DNA of 64,000 nt from Pseudomonadota bacterium. GTDB lineage: Bacteria > Pseudomonadota > Gammaproteobacteria > Pseudomonadales > Azotimanducaceae. Every line of letters starts with the position of its first letter. Position 1 is the stretch's first letter. A model generated the notes under the pieces. It was given only the letters and a program-made list of their open reading frames with translations, ran no database searches and had not been told where the DNA came from. Positions 38,138 through 54,123 of this stretch are shown one piece after another. Location: NCBI GenBank assembly GCA_022571415.1, contig JACZXW010000001.1, forward strand, positions 1 through 64,000, written 5' to 3'. A program made the position numbers and the translations under genes.

Positions 38138-39676
38138 ATGTCTCCAATAGAACTTGCTATTCTTGTTAGCCGTGTTGAATCCATCTGCCGTGAGATGGGT
38201 GTTGTCTTACGCCAGGCAGCATTTTCCCCCAATATCAAAGACCGCCTGGACTTTTCCTGTGCCTTGTTCGATACCTCTGGCGAACTGTTTTCCCAGGCCG
38301 CCCATATACCGGTCCATCTGGGAAGTATGGCGTATGCCATGCGGGATATTGTGACAGGTGTGGATTGGCAAGACGGCGATATACTAGCCTTGAACGATCC
38401 GTTTCTTGGCGGCACACACCTGCCCGATGTCACCCTGGTTTCCCCGCTTTTCATCGACGGCGAGTTGCTTGGATTCGTGGCTAATCGTGCCCATCATGCG
38501 AATATTGGTGCCAGCAGTCCTGGCTCCATGCCGATCTCCACGACCTTGGAAGAAGAAGGATTGATTATTCCGCCCACCTTGTTGGTGAAGGCGGGTCAGG
38601 TGGTGGTGGAAGAAATGGAGAAACTGGGGGGCCTGAAGGGAGCAGATGTGAGCGGAGATTTTGCCGCTCAGATGAGTGCCAACAGGGTTGGCGTTGATCG
38701 CCTGTCAAAACTGGTGAATAAAATGGGGGTCGGCAGGTTTTTGGATGGAATCGATGAAATCAACGCCTATGGCGAGCGATTGGCGAAAGCAGCACTCAAA
38801 TCTATTCCCAAGGGTCGATACAGGTTTTCCGACCTGATGGATGACGATGGCTGCGGCACCGAAAACGTCGAAATCCGTGTGACCATTGATATTGAAGACA
38901 ATAGAATTAAAGTCGATTTCGACGGAACTTCGACACAGGTAAAAGGCAATATTAACTGCCCTCTGTCCGTTGCCGCAGCAGCGGTGTTTTATTGCTTCAG
39001 GTGTTTGCTCCCGGAAAATACTCCGGCATGTGCCGGAGTGTTCAGATTTATCGACCTTCGTGCCCCGGTTGGATCGCTGGTCAATGCGACAAGACCAGCT
39101 GCTACCGCTGCGGGAAATGTTGAAACTTCCATGCGTATCGTTGACGTTGTACTGGGTGCATTGGCAATTGCGATTCCCCGGGTTATTCCCGCCGCCAGTC
39201 AGGGTACGATGAACAATGTCGCGATGGGGAGCCACGAGTCCAGCCAGCCCTGGGATTATTATGAAACTATTGCTGGAGGCAGTGGCGCCAGTTACAGGAC
39301 TGCCGGTGCCTCGGCTGTGCAATCCCACATGACCAACACTTTGAACACACCGATTGAAAGTCTCGAGATGCATTACCCGCTTCGCATTCGCAGCTACAGC
39401 ATCCGCCGCGGATCAGGTGGTAAGGGGCGTTTTCAGGGGGGCGATGGACTAGTTCGTGAGTTTGAATTTCTTGAACCGGCTGAAGTTACCCTGATCACGG
39501 AGCGCCGAAGACACGCACCCTGGGGGCTTGAGGGAGGTGATCCAGGTAAAACCGGAAGAAACTCACTGGATGGCGAGACCCTGCCTGCCAAATGCCACAT
39601 CAATGTTGAGAGGGGCCAGGTTCTCAGGGTGGAAACACCCGGCGGCGGTGGATTTGGTTATTTGGGGTCGGAGTAA
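38138..39676 (+). CDS. Hydantoinase B/oxoprolinase subunit, orphan, with repeat-derived end
   Basis: HyuB-family protein of 512 residues (VESICREMGVVLRQAAFSPNI, LFSQAAHIPVHLGSM, WQDGDILALNDPFLGGTHLPD, RRGSGGKGRFQGGDGLVREF). Such proteins normally pair with a HyuA subunit in ATP-dependent hydrolysis or carboxylation of hydantoin, oxoproline or ketones; no hyuA is in the window. The reading frame should end near GGGFGY, but the last codons LGSE and the stop TAA come from a REP-like repeat. The activity without a partner is unclear. Confidence 0.87.
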   Translation: MSPIELAILVSRVESICREMGVVLRQAAFSPNIKDRLDFSCALFDTSGELFSQAAHIPVHLGSMAYAMRDIVTGVDWQDGDILALNDPFLGGTHLPDVTLVSPLFIDGELLGFVANRAHHANIGASSPGSMPISTTLEEEGLIIPPTLLVKAGQVVVEEMEKLGGLKGADVSGDFAAQMSANRVGVDRLSKLVNKMGVGRFLDGIDEINAYGERLAKAALKSIPKGRYRFSDLMDDDGCGTENVEIRVTIDIEDNRIKVDFDGTSTQVKGNINCPLSVAAAAVFYCFRCLLPENTPACAGVFRFIDLRAPVGSLVNATRPAATAAGNVETSMRIVDVVLGALAIAIPRVIPAASQGTMNNVAMGSHESSQPWDYYETIAGGSGASYRTAGASAVQSHMTNTLNTPIESLEMHYPLRIRSYSIRRGSGGKGRFQGGDGLVREFEFLEPAEVTLITERRRHAPWGLEGGDPGKTGRNSLDGETLPAKCHINVERGQVLRVETPGGGGFGYLGSE

Positions 39677-39772
39677 AAACTCAACGTTTTCAACGGAAGA
39701 TTACAAAAATTAGGAAGAGTTTTTACTCCGACCCCATATTTACGACCCCAAATTTACTCCGACCCCAAATTA
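39661..39772. repeat. REP-like hairpin R1 (GGGGTCGGAGTAA type)
   Basis: The left arm at 39661-39682 reads TTTGGGGTCGGAGTAAAAAC..., and an inverted copy follows at 39717-39736, with two more inverted half-copies up to 39772. The left arm supplies codons LGSE and the stop of hyuB. The motif resembles REPs linked to RAYT/Y1-type transposases, none of which is in this window. Confidence 0.88.
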
Positions 39773-40611: not shown

Positions 40612-41952
40612 ATGAGCCGCGAAGGGAGTCTCGATGCCCCTATCCGACATCCGCTGGGTCAGGATAAACGGGAGTTTTTCGACGAGGATCGACTGGATAA
40701 AGAACTAGAGCGTATTTTCGGAATCTGTCATGGTTGCCGGCGCTGCTTCAGCCTTTGTGAGACTTTCCCGACCTTGTTTGATCTTGTAGACGAATCGGAA
40801 ACCATGGAAGTCGATGGTGTGGCCAAGGAAGACTATGACAAGGTCATTGATCACTGTTATCAATGTGATATGTGTTATCAGACAAAATGCCCCTATGTGC
40901 CCCCGCACGAGTGGAATGTAGATTTCCCGCATCTGATGCTCCGGGCGAAAGCCGTAAAATTCAAGAAAAACGAGAGTAAGTTTCGCGACAGGCTGATAAC
41001 TTCAACCGACTTGATGGGGGCCGTTATCAGCACACCCGGGATCGCTCAGGCCGCCAATAGGGTCAACAAAATGAAGCCTTTCAGGAAATTGTTGGACTTC
41101 GTGTTGCAGATCCATCCTGACGCCAGCTTGCCTGAATATCAAAGCAATACCCTGAACAGGCGTACAAGAAAGCATGTCCCCGCTGATATCAAAGTCAAGC
41201 AAACCGAAAGCACTCGCGGCAAGGTGGCGCTGTTTGCCACCTGTTATGGAAACTATAATGCGCCGGAACTGGGACAGGATCTTGTTCAGATTTTTGAACA
41301 CAATGGAATTCCCGTTAAAATAATAAGGGATGCACGTTGTTGCGGTATGCCAAAATACGAACTGGGCGACCTCGACACCGTGGAAAAATTGAAGCGCCAT
41401 AACATTCCTGTGCTGGCGAGGTTGGTTGATGAAGGCTACGATCTGGTTACCTTGATCCCTTCCTGCACACTGATGTTTAAACAGGAACTGCCCTTAATGT
41501 ATCCAGATGAGTCGAGGGTAAAGAAGGTGCAACAGGCGATGTTCGACCCCTTTGAGTACCTGATGTTGAGGCACAAAGAGGGCTTACTGAAAACTGACTT
41601 CAACAATTCTCTTGGGAAAGTTGCCTACCAGGTAGCGTGTCACCAGCGAGTGCAGAATATTGGAATGAAAACCCGGGATATTCTGCAGCTGATCCCTGGT
41701 ACTGAGATTGTTCCTATTGAAAGATGTACCGGGCACGATGGCACCTACACGTTCAAATCAGAAAAACACGAAGCAGCCATGAAAATCCTGAAGCCAGTCG
41801 TTAGCAGAGTGCAGCAAAGCGAGGCGGCCCATTACACCAGTGATTGTGCGATGGCAGGAGCTCATATCGCGCACGGATTAGCAGATGGCACCAAAGCGAC
41901 CCACCCTCTCAGCCTGCTGAAATATGCCTATGGAAGTTTGGGGTCGGAGTAA
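40612..41952 (+). CDS. Heterodisulfide reductase-related iron-sulfur oxidoreductase
   Basis: A 446-residue GlpC/HdrD-like protein: two [4Fe-4S] motifs (CHGCRRCFSLCETFP and CYQCDMCYQTKCPYVPP) followed by CCG-type domains (ARCCGMPKYELGD, PSCTLMFKQELP, ERCTGHDGTYTF). It is the usual neighbour of the short rubrerythrin and is proposed to feed it electrons. In relatives a DUF3501 gene often follows; here the gene ends inside a REP-like hairpin that supplies LGSE and TAA after SLLKYAYG, and DUF3501 is absent. Confidence 0.88.
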   Translation: MSREGSLDAPIRHPLGQDKREFFDEDRLDKELERIFGICHGCRRCFSLCETFPTLFDLVDESETMEVDGVAKEDYDKVIDHCYQCDMCYQTKCPYVPPHEWNVDFPHLMLRAKAVKFKKNESKFRDRLITSTDLMGAVISTPGIAQAANRVNKMKPFRKLLDFVLQIHPDASLPEYQSNTLNRRTRKHVPADIKVKQTESTRGKVALFATCYGNYNAPELGQDLVQIFEHNGIPVKIIRDARCCGMPKYELGDLDTVEKLKRHNIPVLARLVDEGYDLVTLIPSCTLMFKQELPLMYPDESRVKKVQQAMFDPFEYLMLRHKEGLLKTDFNNSLGKVAYQVACHQRVQNIGMKTRDILQLIPGTEIVPIERCTGHDGTYTFKSEKHEAAMKILKPVVSRVQQSEAAHYTSDCAMAGAHIAHGLADGTKATHPLSLLKYAYGSLGSE

Positions 41953-42013
41953 AAACTCCACGGAAAGTCAAAGCTTGCACGTTTAGTGCTTGGAGTTTTT
42001 ATTCCGACCCCAA
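41938..42013. repeat. REP-like hairpin R2 shared by two convergent genes
   Basis: Arms of 23 bp (41938-41960 and 41991-42013, one mismatch) around a 30-base loop. The left arm gives the plus-strand iron-sulfur gene its final LGSE codons and TAA 41950-41952; the right arm gives rnt, on the minus strand, its final KLGSE and TAA 41999-42001. One hairpin therefore ends both convergent genes. Confidence 0.92.
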
Positions 42014-42637
42014 TTTTCCCTTGGACCCAAAAGCTCCGCGCCACTTGTTCACGATGGTACAGAATATTTCTGCTGTCTTGTCACAATCGTATCGGGCGGA
42101 ATGTGCTTCTTCGGATTCGAAATCAATGCCTGCGGCAGCGCAGGCACGGGCCAGAACGGTTTGACCGTAGGCAAGGCCGCACAAGGTGGCGGTATCAAAT
42201 GAGGAGAAGGGGTGAAAGGGAATACGCTTGAGATGACAACGTTCAGCGGCAACGTTGATGAAACCCTGATCAAAGGAAGCATTGTGGGCCACCATGATGG
42301 CGCGGTTGCAGCCGGTGCGTTTGATTTCTTTTCGTATGGCTTGGAATATCTCTCCCAGGGCCTTCGATTCCGAAACGGCCATACGAAGGGGGCTGAATGG
42401 ATCAATGCCGGTAAACTCCAGGGAAGCTTGTTCAATATTTGCCCCTTCAAAAGGTTCGATGTTGTAGAAATATCGTTCCCCCGGTACTAAAAGACCAGAA
42501 TCATCCATCGTAATGATGACGGCAGCGCATTCCAGCAACGCGTCCGTCTTGCTGTTGAAGCCCCCCGTTTCCAGATCCACGACCACAGGCAGGTAACCTC
42601 GGAATCGATGTGCAATGGGTAGTTTGTCTTCGCTCAA
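41999..42637 (-). CDS. rnt: Ribonuclease T
   Basis: DEDDh 3'-5' exoribonuclease that trims tRNA CCA ends and other stable RNAs. Exo motifs: VVVDLETGGFN (D and E), MVAHNASFDQGF, and HSARYDCDKTAE (H and D). TTG 42637 gives a 212-residue protein close to E. coli RNase T (215); AGGA lies just upstream within the end of pyrC, and the longer frame to 42730 lies inside pyrC. The last codons KLGSE come from REP-like element R2. Gene order pyrC-rnt fits pseudomonads. Confidence 0.92.
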   Translation of the reverse strand: MSEDKLPIAHRFRGYLPVVVDLETGGFNSKTDALLECAAVIITMDDSGLLVPGERYFYNIEPFEGANIEQASLEFTGIDPFSPLRMAVSESKALGEIFQAIRKEIKRTGCNRAIMVAHNASFDQGFINVAAERCHLKRIPFHPFSSFDTATLCGLAYGQTVLARACAAAGIDFESEEAHSARYDCDKTAEIFCTIVNKWRGAFGSKGKLGSE

Positions 42638-43682: not shown

Positions 43683-43833
43683 GGCGCGGATTGTAACATT
43701 TCTGTAGACCCCTTTTTCTGGTAGTCGTCCTGATTTAGTTGGTTATCCTGGTTGACTGACCGGAAGGCAATATCAATTTGGCTGGATTGGGCGCTATAAC
43801 TTTGGCGTTTTATTATCAATCTCGGTTTCACTC

Positions 43834-43981
43834 GCAGAAGGCTTGCCCAGGCCTCTCTCCTCCGCTGGCTTGCGGCCCTCCGGCCCTGCCTTCACTACGG
43901 CAGAAGCCCTTGCAGGTCTTCTTCCTTCGTTCAGCGCTGCGCTTTAACGGCTACGGAGAGAGGCCTGGGCAAGCCTTCTGC
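43834..43981. repeat. Palindromic element B1
   Basis: Perfect 27-bp inverted arms (43834-43860, 43955-43981; GCAGAAGGCTTGCCCAGG...) enclose a 94-bp GC-rich module. Reverse-complemented, the module matches that of B2 (GTAGCCGT(T/A)AAAGCG at one end, CCGCAAGCCAGCGG-like at the other), though the arms of B1 and B2 are unrelated. The 655-base pyrC-argG gap holds B1, B2 and the argG promoter region; the rest shows nothing recognisable and no coding frame is credible. Confidence 0.9.
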
Positions 43982-44036
43982 TAGGGTTCTGAACACTACT
44001 AACGTTTCAATGTATTCCGATTCAAGTTAGAGCAGA

Positions 44037-44195
44037 AGAAAATATCAACAGGTTCCCTTGCCGTAGCCGTAAAAGCGAAGCACCGAGTGACGAGGGAGGG
44101 GGCCGCCATCGGACCCGCAGGGGCTCGTGAGGAAGTGAGGGCAGGCCGGCGGGCTGCAAGCCAGCGGGAGGCAAGGGAACCTGTTGATATTTTCT
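44037..44195. repeat. Palindromic element B2
   Basis: Perfect 26-bp inverted arms (44037-44062, 44170-44195; AGAAAATATCAACAGG...) enclose a 107-bp module in the opposite orientation to that of B1, 55 bases away. Interior landmarks are GTAGCCGTAAAAGCG, GGGCAGGCCGGCGGG and GCAAGCCAGCGGG. Arms differ from B1 while the centre is shared, so the arms are not ordinary terminal repeats of one transposon. Confidence 0.9.
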
Positions 44196-49872: not shown

Positions 49873-51894
49873 CTAGGTGACTTTCATGCCGGGTGTGGCG
49901 CCATCATTGGGTTCCAGCAGAAAGATGTTCTTGCCTCCAGGTCCGGCCGCAAGGATCATGCCCTCTGACAGGCCAAATTTCATCTTGCGAGCCTTCAGGT
50001 TCGCTACCATCACCGTCAGCTTGCCAATAAGCTGGTCCGGCTCATAGGCGGCTTTGATCCCGGCAAAAACAGTGCGTTGTCCGGAACCGATGTCCAGGGT
50101 TAGTTTTAACAACTTGTCGGCTCCCTCAACATATTCAGCATTGATAATCCTGGCAACACGCAGGTCCACCTTCGCAAAATCATCAAACTCGATATCATCA
50201 GCGATGTCTTCCGGGTCTGTATCTTTTGCCAGTGGCCCGTTGTTCAGTTCTGGACTTTCCCTACCGGCCTCAATCATGGCTGCTACCGATTTTGGGTCTA
50301 CGCGAACCATCAGCGGCGTAAACTTATTGATATGGTGATCTAACAAAGTAACGTCCAGACTGTTCCAGTCCAGCGGCTCGACATTTAGAAACGCTTCCGC
50401 TTTTTTTGTTAACTCCGGCAGCACTGGTTTCAGATAGGTAATGATCATGCGGAACAGGTTGATGCCATCCGAGCATACCTGCTGCACCTTGTCCCTGTTG
50501 CCGTCGTCTTTGATCAGTACCCAGGGTTTTTCTTCGGCAATGAACTGGTTTACCTTGTCTGCCATCGCCATTATTTCGCGGATCGCCTTTCCATAGTCTC
50601 CGTTTTCGTAATGCATGGAGATGTTTGATTTTTGATCTGCAACTTCTTTAATCAGGGGGTTTGATGTTTGTACAGACAACTGATTGTCAAATTGCTTGTT
50701 GATAAAACCGGCACAGCGACTGGCAATATTGACTACCTTCCCCACCAGGTCTGAATTTACACGTTGGATGAAATCGTCGAGGTTGATGTCCAGGTCATCC
50801 ACGTTACCGTTCAGTTTGGCGGCGAAATAATATCGAAGATACTCTGGATTCAAATGGTCCAGGTAGGTCCGGGCGTTGATAAATGTACCGCGGGATTTGG
50901 ACATCTTCAGCCCGTCCACCGTCACGAAACCATGGGCGTGAATTTTGGTCGGTGTCCTGAATCCTGATGCACTCAGCATTGCGGGCCAGAATAACGCATG
51001 GAAATTGATGATGTCCTTGCCAATAAAATGATGCACTTCACATTCGCTGTCTATGTTCCAGAAATCGTCAAAATCCAGGTCTTCAGTCCTGTCGCAATAG
51101 TTCTTGAAACTGGCCATATAGCCGATTGGTGCGTCCAGCCAGACATAAAAAAACTTGCCGGGTTCCCCCGGAATCTCGAATCCGAAATAGGGAGCGTCAC
51201 GACTGATGTCCCAGTCCTGTAAACCTGCATCAAGCCACTCTGCTAATTTGTTAGCGACCTGCTCCTGGAGCGTGCCGCTACGAGTCCACTCTCGCAGGTA
51301 GTCCGAGAAGCTAGACAACGCAAAAAAGAAGTGGGTAGACTTTTTCAGTATCGGTTTGGCACCGGAGATCTTTGACACCGGGTTAATCAGGTCCGTGGCG
51401 TTGTATGTCGCGCTGCATGCTTCGCAGTTGTCACCGTACTGCTCCTCGGTTTTGCATTTTGGGCAGGTCCCGACGATAAATCGGTCGGCAAGGAACATGT
51501 TTTTCTCCGGATCAAAGAGTTGATCCACGGATTTCACATTGATCTGCCCTGCGTCCTTGAGGCGAGAATAGATCAATGATGAGTACTGCTGATTTTCATC
51601 TGAATGTGTGGAATAGTAATTATCATGGCTGATCATGAAATCGTGAAAGTCCCGCTCATGTTCCAGTTTGATCCCGGTTATAAACTCCTCCGGGGTGATG
51701 CCGAGTTCCTCGGCTTTGAGCATCGTCGCTGTACCATGGGTGTCATCCGCACACACATATATGCATTGATGACCCTGCATACGTTGAAACCGCACCCATA
51801 TATCAGTCTGGATATGCTCCATTAAATGCCCGAGATGTATAGAGCCATTGGCATTGGGCAAGGCGCTGGTGACCAGAATTCGGCGTTTCGGCAT
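49873..51894 (-). CDS. metG: Methionyl-tRNA synthetase
   Basis: Class I synthetase of 673 residues. HIGH is [17 protein letters not shown] is [11 protein letters not shown], and the zinc knuckle is [17 protein letters not shown]; a C-terminal Trbp111-like tRNA-binding domain ([40 protein letters not shown]) gives dimerisation. Length is near E. coli MetG (677). It is divergent from apbC, as in many gammaproteobacteria, but the 506-base gap is enlarged by two palindromic elements. Confidence 0.97.
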
Positions 51895-52039
51895 ATCGGA
51901 CTGCTCGTTATTTTGAGTGAGATTCAGGGGTGCTAAATATATAGATTCGGACGCTGAATTTCACCTGCAAAGTGCTAAAAAGGCTGGTGGATGGAATTTA
52001 TAAAATTTGTGGGGTGGTGGTAGTTGTGGTGTTGGCGCC

Positions 52040-52154
52040 AGAGATTGCAGCAAGGTGCTCTCTTGCCGCACCGCTGTGAATACATCCATGTACGCTGCTC
52101 ATTTACATCCCTGTAAATGATGCTGCTGCAAGAGAGCACCTTGCTGCAATCTCT
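52040..52154. repeat. Palindromic element C1
   Basis: Perfect 27-bp inverted arms (52040-52066, 52128-52154; AGAGATTGCAGCAAGG...) enclose a 61-bp module with an 8-bp hairpin (CATTTACA-TCCC-TGTAAATG, 52100-52119) and a CATCCATGTAC palindrome-like part. The module is the reverse complement of that in C2 with base-pair-preserving changes. The 506-base metG-apbC gap holds C1 and C2; the remaining 280 bases show no further feature. Confidence 0.92.
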
Positions 52155-52240
52155 TCGTTATTTCGCGAATAGACCCTTAGACCACCATCTGCAGAAAGTA
52201 ATTTGTCGCGAAAATCGTCATATGTCCCTAAAAAGGTAAG

Positions 52241-52351
52241 AGAATTCGGTCTGGTGTCCTCTCCCAGCAGCATCTTTGACGGGGATGTCAAAGCGCAGCG
52301 TACATGGATGTACTCGCAGCGGTGCAGGGAGAGGACACCAGACTGAGTTCT
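52241..52351. repeat. Palindromic element C2
   Basis: Inverted arms of 25 bp (52241-52265, 52327-52351; two mismatches; ...TCTGGTGTCCTCTCCC) around a 61-bp module, the same length as in C1 and in the opposite orientation. The inner hairpin CTTTGAC-GGGGAT-GTCAAAG (52274-52293) differs from the C1 hairpin at two paired positions in a compensatory way. GTACATGGATGTAC is a second palindrome. It ends 49 bases before the apbC ATG. Confidence 0.92.
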
Positions 52352-52400
52352 TGTAGTTCAAAGCAAGAACTTGATAAATTGATAAAGCTGGACGCCTACA

Positions 52401-53318
52401 ATGGACAAAATTAATTTGACGATTGACCGGGGCCGGTTTACGTGTGAGGCTAGCGCGAAATTTAGAGTGCAGGGGGGTTGCAAAATCAGTAATTCGACCA
52501 TTGAAAAGTTCCGGTTACCGGGGGTGAAACACATCATCGCAGTGGCCTCCGGGAAGGGAGGTGTCGGTAAATCGACGGTCGCTGCAAACCTTGCTTTGGC
52601 TTTAGTGGCCGAAGGGTACCGGGTCGCGCTTCTGGATGCTGATATATACGGGCCAAGTCTGGGCGTCATGATGGGTGTGGCGGAAGGAACGAAGCCTGAG
52701 GTTAAAAGTGACATGCTGCAGCCCATCATCGCCCATGAGGTGCAGTGTATGTCCATGAGTTTTCTGACATCTGAACGAACGGCTACCGTCTGGCGCGGGC
52801 CGATGGCCAGTGGCGCGCTGCAGCAGTTACTGACACAGACCGAGTGGCAGGCCGTGGATTATCTGGTGGTGGATATGCCGCCGGGGACGGGAGATATCCA
52901 GCTGACCTTGGCACAAAAGGTACCCGTCAATGGCGCCGTCATTGTTACCACTCCCCAGGATATTGCTTTGCTTGATGCCAGGAAAGGCATTGAAATGTTT
53001 CGCAAGGTTGAGGTTCCGGTTATCGGTATCGTTGAGAATATGAGTACGCACATTTGTTCCAATTGTGGTCATGAAGAAGCCATATTTGGCACCGGCGGCG
53101 GCGCCGCGATTGCACAGGATTATGAAACAACCCTGCTGGCGCAATTGCCTTTGTCCATGGCCATCAGAGAGCAGATGGATAGTGGAGAGCCTACAGTGGT
53201 TGCAGACCCTGAAGGTGACGTGAGCCAGCTTTTCAGGCAGATGGCGAGACAAGTCGTTGATACCGTCGCGTCTACAGCCTCGGAAACCGGGCCCTTGATA
53301 ACAATTGTTGACGACTGA
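52401..53318 (+). CDS. apbC: Iron-sulfur cluster carrier ApbC (Mrp/NBP35 ATPase)
   Basis: P-loop ATPase of 305 residues transferring iron-sulfur clusters to apoproteins. The deviant Walker A is ASGKGGVGKSTVAANLALAL; LLDADIYGPSLGVMMG and MPPGTGDIQLTLAQ follow, and the cluster-binding CxxC is in THICSNCGHEE. The DUF59 domain usually present at the N terminus of longer Mrp proteins (E. coli 369 residues) is replaced by about 45 unrelated residues. ATG 52401 is the only usable start upstream of the ATPase domain. It is followed by dcd as in pseudomonads. Confidence 0.92.
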   Translation: MDKINLTIDRGRFTCEASAKFRVQGGCKISNSTIEKFRLPGVKHIIAVASGKGGVGKSTVAANLALALVAEGYRVALLDADIYGPSLGVMMGVAEGTKPEVKSDMLQPIIAHEVQCMSMSFLTSERTATVWRGPMASGALQQLLTQTEWQAVDYLVVDMPPGTGDIQLTLAQKVPVNGAVIVTTPQDIALLDARKGIEMFRKVEVPVIGIVENMSTHICSNCGHEEAIFGTGGGAAIAQDYETTLLAQLPLSMAIREQMDSGEPTVVADPEGDVSQLFRQMARQVVDTVASTASETGPLITIVDD

Positions 53319-53319
53319 G

Positions 53320-53480
53320 CAGCCTTGAGCGGCTCGTATAAACAGCCTTGAGCGGCACTTGTAAACAGCCCTGAGCGGCTCGTATAAACAGCCCTGAGCG
53401 GCACTTGTAAACAGCCCTGAGCGGCACTTGTAAACAGCCCTGAGCGGCTCGTATAAACAGCCTTGAACCGCACGTAACAA
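53320..53480. repeat. Seven 23-bp tandem repeats between apbC and dcd
   Basis: Seven head-to-tail units of exactly 23 bp start at the apbC stop: CAGCC(C/T)TGAGCGG followed by either CTCGTATAAA (type A) or CACTTGTAAA minus a base (type B). Order is A-B-A-B-B-A and a diverged last copy. No spacers exist, so it is not CRISPR. The array ends 15 bases before the dcd start. Confidence 0.95.
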
Positions 53481-54071: not shown

Positions 54072-54123
54072 GGGGTCAGAGTAAAGGGTCAGAGTTTTTA
54101 CTCTGACCCTTTACTCTGACCCC
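54072..54123. repeat. REP-like hairpin R3 (GGGGTCAGAGTAA type)
   Basis: Perfect 24-bp arms (54072-54095 and 54100-54123) with a TTTT loop; each arm contains two GGGTCAGAGT motifs. A further copy (GACCCCCAAGCC) follows twice to about 54152. The right arm supplies the stop and the end of the DUF3108 gene on the minus strand. The long T/A-rich loop could also make it a terminator for dcd. Confidence 0.92.

Follow-up and report, generated by a model that had tools for sequence, protein, structure and literature searches.

A REP-like dispersed palindrome of Gammaproteobacteria with paired hairpin loops resembling CsrA/RsmA sites

Two inverted palindromes between metG and apbC

In the window, that is, the whole stretch of 64,000 nucleotides analysed here, two palindromic units in inverted orientation lie between apbC and metG, the latter on the minus strand with its start at 51894. 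Each consists of outer arms of 29–31 bp which enclose a core with two small hairpins. The first copy, C1, spans 52040–52154 and carries the ANGGAN loops described below on the minus strand; the second, C2, spans 52241–52351 and carries them on the plus strand. The outer arms of C1 (left, 52040–52070; right, 52124–52154) are 97% complementary, those of C2 (left, 52241–52269; right, 52323–52351) 90%. The conserved cores lie at 52069–52122 on the plus strand (C1) and 52271–52324 on the minus strand (C2). Folding energies of both units are far below those of shuffled sequences (z = −10.7 for C1, −10.2 for C2), mostly because of the outer arms.

On the minus strand, hairpin 1 of C1 (52081–52092) reads UACA-UGGA-UGUA, with a C-AUGGAU-G hexaloop, and hairpin 2 (52100–52119) reads CAUUUACA-GGGA-UGUAAAUG, with a C-AGGGAU-G hexaloop; in core orientation the latter is CATTTACA-TCCC-TGTAAATG. 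In C2, hairpin 2 (52274–52293, plus strand) is CUUUGACG-GGGA-UGUCAAAG, with a G replacing the usual A of ANGGA, and hairpin 1 (52300–52313, plus strand) is GUACA-UGGA-UGUAC, which matches the SELEX consensus for CsrA, RUACARGGAUGU, at 11 of 12 positions (PMC7652899).

An earlier note on this DNA had read the differences between the two copies in hairpin 2 as compensatory, with both partners changed at two paired positions (A-T to T-A and T-A to G-C) and a third change giving a G-T wobble. When the copies are matched by the shared core, C2 hairpin 2, which is CTTTGACG-GGGA-TGTCAAAG on the plus strand of the window and CTTTGACA-TCCC-CGTCAAAG when turned to the orientation of C1, indeed differs by both double changes. 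The third change is one-sided; it gives a G.T wobble on the strand opposite the core but an A.C on the C1 (plus) strand, and it falls on an A that hardly varies elsewhere in the repeat family. The two stem strings compared in the note belong to opposite strands of the element and are comparable only since the stems are palindromes; the outer arms had gone unmentioned. Because covariation between two copies alone is weak evidence, the wider repeat family was needed.

As for the neighboring genes, a probable metG promoter (51936–51964, minus strand; 9 of 12 positions match the sigma-70 consensus, with 0.9 such sites expected by chance) lies gene-proximal of C1, and its promoter-like sequence TATATATTTAG is also found in genomes G002 and G004. 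Conserved promoter-like sequences of both metG and apbC are located between the repeats and the genes, which places C1 and C2 upstream of both; a role as 5′ leader element of metG or apbC was therefore rejected in the window. The spacer between C1 and C2 revealed no promoter-like site, and a conserved promoter in the spacers of repeat pairs was rejected because these spacers are not conserved.

A dispersed repeat family

A covariance model, R1, was built from seven seeds with the arms excluded; C1 (73.6 bits) and C2 (70.7 bits) match it but are themselves seed members. Three further copies are present in the same genome beside C1 and C2, and relatives occur in other genomes; the R1 core was detected in 97 of the 244 genomes searched from the order and in 59 of 321 from the class. 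Among the matches listed in a pattern scan of named genomes are Xanthomonas, Stenotrophomonas, Lysobacter, Arenimonas, Marinobacter, Alcanivorax, Rheinheimera, Microbulbifer, Halopseudomonas, Chromatiales, Methylotuvimicrobium, and others. The highest pattern count, 602 as compared to 0 for the reversed pattern, was obtained for the genome of a methanotroph, apparently Methylotuvimicrobium buryatense 5G. A search of E. coli gave no copy, and a search of plasmids and phages almost no matches, for which reason spread by such vehicles was rejected. Rfam models had no match in the window, and ten loci gave only three weak matches, far below the gathering score. Literature searches by sequence string and by topic returned no prior description; the repeats thus appear to constitute a large, apparently undescribed family dispersed in Gammaproteobacteria.

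Two variants deserve mention. Four loci of one genome (L035, L039, L042, and L045 of G006) have hairpin 1 only, within a long near-perfect palindrome and without hairpin 2, possibly a simpler form, and two R1 copies of the genome studied here (L040 and L043, on contigs C57 and C15) carry a small extra insert beside hairpin 1 (CTCGGCGTCCCC), representing a subfamily of this genome.

As in REP elements and BIMEs, palindromes tagged with GTAG or CGTC and associated with RAYT genes, the copies are dispersed and extragenic and occur in large numbers, as inverted pairs and as alternating arrays; in being a high-copy extragenic palindrome often found in inverted pairs the repeat has the habit of a REP. 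It differs in that the repeat is about 110 nt long, with two hairpins, arms of 25–30 bp, and conserved ANGGAN loops, whereas a REP is a single hairpin of 20–40 nt. The consensus of the copies shows no fixed unpaired GTAG or CGTC tag such as REPs have at the foot of their hairpin; at the base of hairpin 2, CGTC is present only partially. Membership in the RAYT-REP system was rejected on both flanking and co-occurrence: none of 26 RAYT (Y1_Tnp) transposase genes has an R1 match within 1.5 kb, and a Y1_Tnp gene is absent from four high-copy genomes (G099, G201, G244, and G249). CGTC REPs likewise have no dedicated transposase (PMC3733652). In Halothiobacillus neapolitanus, CGTC-1 dimers lie inside 41-bp palindromes, the printed consensus of which includes “attcacgG” (PMC3733652). 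This string resembles TTCACGG of the repeat core and, judged from the printed consensus, these palindromes are possibly an earlier sighting of the family.

Covariation of the stems and the strand that folds

For analysis of covariation, 86 non-redundant copies were lined up by position, with no aligner used. Only copies in which 9 or more of the 14 arm pairs could form had been admitted, a preselection that inflates the figure for the outer stem; 94% of their pairing cells pair, as compared to 59% with partners shuffled and 35–42% with partners slid, the shuffles ignoring kinship among copies. In this larger alignment paired positions do not vary independently, which bears out the covariation claimed from C1 and C2: the score is 0.86, versus 0.19 (maximum 0.21) after shuffling and 0.12–0.15 after sliding. 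Nearly every pair of the analysed 20-bp outer stem and of hairpin 2 occurs in all four Watson-Crick types. An unselected test of arm complementarity gave a median score of 22 for arms of the same copy and 8 for arms swapped between loci; 212 of 230 own arms, as opposed to 15 of 684 swapped ones, were above threshold. In Marinobacter, close species differ by double changes in orthologous copies, both in the obgE-proB gap and at a second locus, and half-way states (L254 and L255) are G.U on the strand with the ANGGAN loops (hereafter the GGA strand).

Taken alone, such covariation could also arise by templated repair of the palindromes. Template switching during replication, a known mechanism for imperfect palindromes, copies one arm into the other and would leave matched stems without any selection on the fold. 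The long and nearly perfect arms are as expected from such repair, as is the fact that arms can differ completely among copies with the same core; L060, L191, and L089, from Marinobacter and a Cellvibrionaceae genome, have the same core but wholly different, yet internally matched, arms. Repair would, however, leave mismatches without strand bias, and this is not what is observed. Isolated arm mismatches, read on the core strand, are A.C in 84 cases and G.T in 24 (p = 5e-9), C.T in 29 and G.A in 6, and C.C in 15 and G.G in 1; read on the opposite, GGA strand, the frequent kinds become G.U, G.A, and G.G, which are those tolerated by a folded strand. Within one genome the bias has the same direction (21 versus 9). 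In addition, the half-way states in orthologs are those of stepwise compensation on the GGA strand, M. buryatense copies with the same core (L298–L337) have arms in common, and repair gives no account of the fixed loops. The asymmetry of the mismatches thus counts against repair as the whole story, and as the sole origin of the matched stems it is improbable.

With RNA parameters, 62 of 84 copies fold better on the GGA strand than on the other; with DNA parameters, 52 of 83 do. Asymmetric mismatches argue for folding of a single strand and against a cruciform, since both strands of a cruciform fold alike and would accumulate mismatches symmetrically. Together, the data indicate that the fold of one strand is under selection, with RNA or single-stranded DNA favored over a cruciform. 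The proposal that a folded form, RNA or cruciform, is selected is supported, with the cruciform disfavored. The constrained strand folds into a long outer stem topped by two C-G closed ANGGAN hairpins 23 nt apart.

Conserved loops and the CsrA/RsmA reading

On the GGA strand both hairpins are capped by C-ANGGAN-G, in which A and GGA are fixed and both N are free. The evidence for the loops comes from hairpin 2, which lies outside the pattern used for the database search; positions within the pattern are biased. Hairpin 2 reads C-A-N-GGA-N-G, with both N free, in about 95% of 177 hairpins; in the 86-copy alignment its A was imposed by the filter and is no evidence there. In hairpin 1, the A is present in every one of the copies missed by the search pattern (91/91), a figure in which some bias remains through the R1 seeds, which carried this A. 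The base opposite is free (A in 49, G in 33, T in 8, and C in 1 of the 91, core strand), so that the A is kept as a base and not as part of a pair. Two strict motifs are present in 165 of 230 cores, with a spacing of 23 nt in 146 of the 165, whereas shuffled cores average 0.014 motifs; in M. buryatense both are kept in only 29 of 133 copies.

In the published high-affinity site for CsrA/RsmE, an ANGGAX hexaloop sits immediately on top of a stem closed by C-G, and N and X may vary (PMC4005645). CsrA can bridge a pair of sites spaced by 10–63 nt, most effectively at more than 18 nt (PMC7652899). At the level of sequence, the loops of the repeat have this very arrangement, and their distance of 23 nt falls within the bridging range. 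A bivalent CsrA/RsmA site is the reading that best fits the fixed and the free loop positions, and we put at roughly one half the probability that C1 and C2 belong to a dispersed, REP-like element with an RNA hairpin bound by CsrA/RsmA. The folded molecule would then be RNA of the GGA strand, a CsrA dimer could bridge the two hairpins, and each transcribed copy would tether or titrate CsrA/RsmA. The element might act as a genome-scattered decoy, or the binding might be part of its own stabilization or spread.

Several observations fit this reading less well. Hairpin 2 of C2 has no conserved loop A, which counts against it; hairpin 1 has a conserved TTCAC/GAGCC internal loop for which CsrA gives no account; and most SELEX ligands had short stems, while very stable hairpins may be bound less well (PMC7652899). 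Also against it are the position of C1 and C2 upstream of both promoter-like sequences, the spacer devoid of such a site, the random orientation to genes described below, and the few M. buryatense copies that keep both strict motifs. In favor of the reading, CsrA was found in 55 of the 59 genomes with the repeat, versus 217 of the 262 others, kinship being ignored in this count; the association is weak and may reflect kinship. The search for CsrA gave no match in four repeat-bearing genomes, one of which is 98% complete.

The CsrA/RsmA-sequestering sRNAs of the CsrB/CsrC, RsmY/RsmZ, and RsmU type also have A(N)GGA-loop hairpins, more than one in each molecule, and are bridged by the CsrA dimer, as the repeat would be (PMC7652899, PMC4005645); the Xanthomonas RNA RsmU contains four GGA motifs and is bound by RsmA (PMC7694677). 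These are, however, single-locus sRNAs, while the repeat is dispersed, its loops sit inside long palindromic arms, and sequestration by it is only predicted. Identity with RsmU was rejected, as R1 has no match in the comEA 3′ UTR, from which RsmU derives.

Genomic context and mobility

Whole copies are present or absent at orthologous intergenic sites. The same-genus genome G002 lacks about 420 bp of the metG-apbC gap (approximately 51998–52420), both copies included. At an empty site in Marinobacter one species reads TAGCGCC-GGCTTATCC, and others carry the full palindrome at the point of the hyphen. Inverted duplication of host flanks upon insertion was rejected, as at this site palindrome and arms are gained or lost as a unit, and the common arms of same-core M. 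buryatense copies also speak against it; in both cases the arms evidently travel with the core. The listed start codon of apbC (ATG, 52401) falls inside the inserted segment; homology of the protein starts near residue 24–30, and the true start is probably at about GTG 52467.

In a mixed sample of genomes, the GGA strands of isolated (simple) pairs always point outward (31 “+-” versus 0 “-+”); in M. buryatense pairs are rare and their arrangement is mixed. Crude gene calling gave random orientation to flanking genes: the GGA strand is the mRNA strand in 19 cases and the opposite one in 20 in the mixed sample, and the corresponding numbers are 19 and 23 in M. buryatense. The repeats might be ordinary REP-like RNA hairpins at the 3′ ends of genes, serving as stabilizer, RNase III site, or terminator, with GGA loops that are incidental. 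The mixed sample has the copies more often in convergent than in divergent gaps (37 versus 17) and, in tandem gaps, near upstream 3′ ends (median 46 bp), which agrees with this idea; yet against it stand the lack of orientation bias and the lack of a convergent excess in M. buryatense (23 versus 25), and it does not predict a C-ANGGAN-G fixed in two loops. T-runs following the arms are rare on both strands (3 and 7 of 163) and were found on neither in the gap of the window; a T-run directly after the stem being missing, an intrinsic terminator was rejected. As a whole, the 3′-end explanation is quite unlikely.

A DNA-level alternative is that the GGA strand folds during replication and its loop is recognized by a strand-specific transposase or recombinase, selection then acting on mobility, as modeled by REPs with TnpA-REP or attC sites with integrases. 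Integron attC sites are imperfect palindromes with free stem sequence in which the fold of one strand is recognized. The repeat resembles them in the free stems and the constraint on one strand's fold, but it is conserved at the apex and not at the foot, and it occurs singly or in inverted pairs, not in cassette arrays. Its REP-like habits (intergenic location, one-way inverted pairs, presence or absence at orthologous sites, random orientation to genes) suit a DNA substrate, and DNA hairpins tolerate G.T and G.A mismatches as well. Against this stand the missing link to Y1 transposases noted above, the stronger strand bias with RNA than with DNA parameters, and the base-by-base agreement of the loop with a CsrA site, so that we consider a DNA substrate unlikely.

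The CsrA/RsmA reading can be extended to the persistence of the family itself. It is conceivable, though rather doubtful, that the repeat spreads through, or persists because of, CsrA/RsmA-capturing RNA, either as a genome-wide sponge or as an RNA-level mobile element with CsrA as host factor. An RNA that antagonizes RsmA could also come from the repeat in lineages such as Xanthomonas, for which a search had found no rsmB homologues (PMC3937308). Bacterial genomes commonly contain dispersed palindromes, whose functions have mostly been argued from position; this family offers a precise molecular prediction, namely two CsrA/RsmA sites on the same strand, and is carried by cultivable strains such as M. 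buryatense 5G. If that prediction is right, the free pool of a global RNA regulator could be altered by the hundreds of copies, or a mobile repeat would be seen to exploit it.

Other repeats are present in the window. A second inverted pair of long-armed palindromes (43831–43984 and 44037–44195; arms of 26–30 bp) has a larger and different core without C-ANGGAN-G loops; the palindrome at 44037–44195 resembles in its arm the R1 copy of contig C10. A short tandem repeat lies between apbC and the next gene (dcd-like) at about 53330–53480, and in the same-genus genome G001 (L198) a GCTCAGGGCTGTTCAT repeat adjoins the same two genes. Inverted repeats of GGGGTC[AG]GAGTAAA are located at 39660–39770, 41927–42024, and 54072–54123; the same sequence flanks a Y1 transposase gene in this genome (L249; also once in L245), of which it probably forms the terminal repeats.
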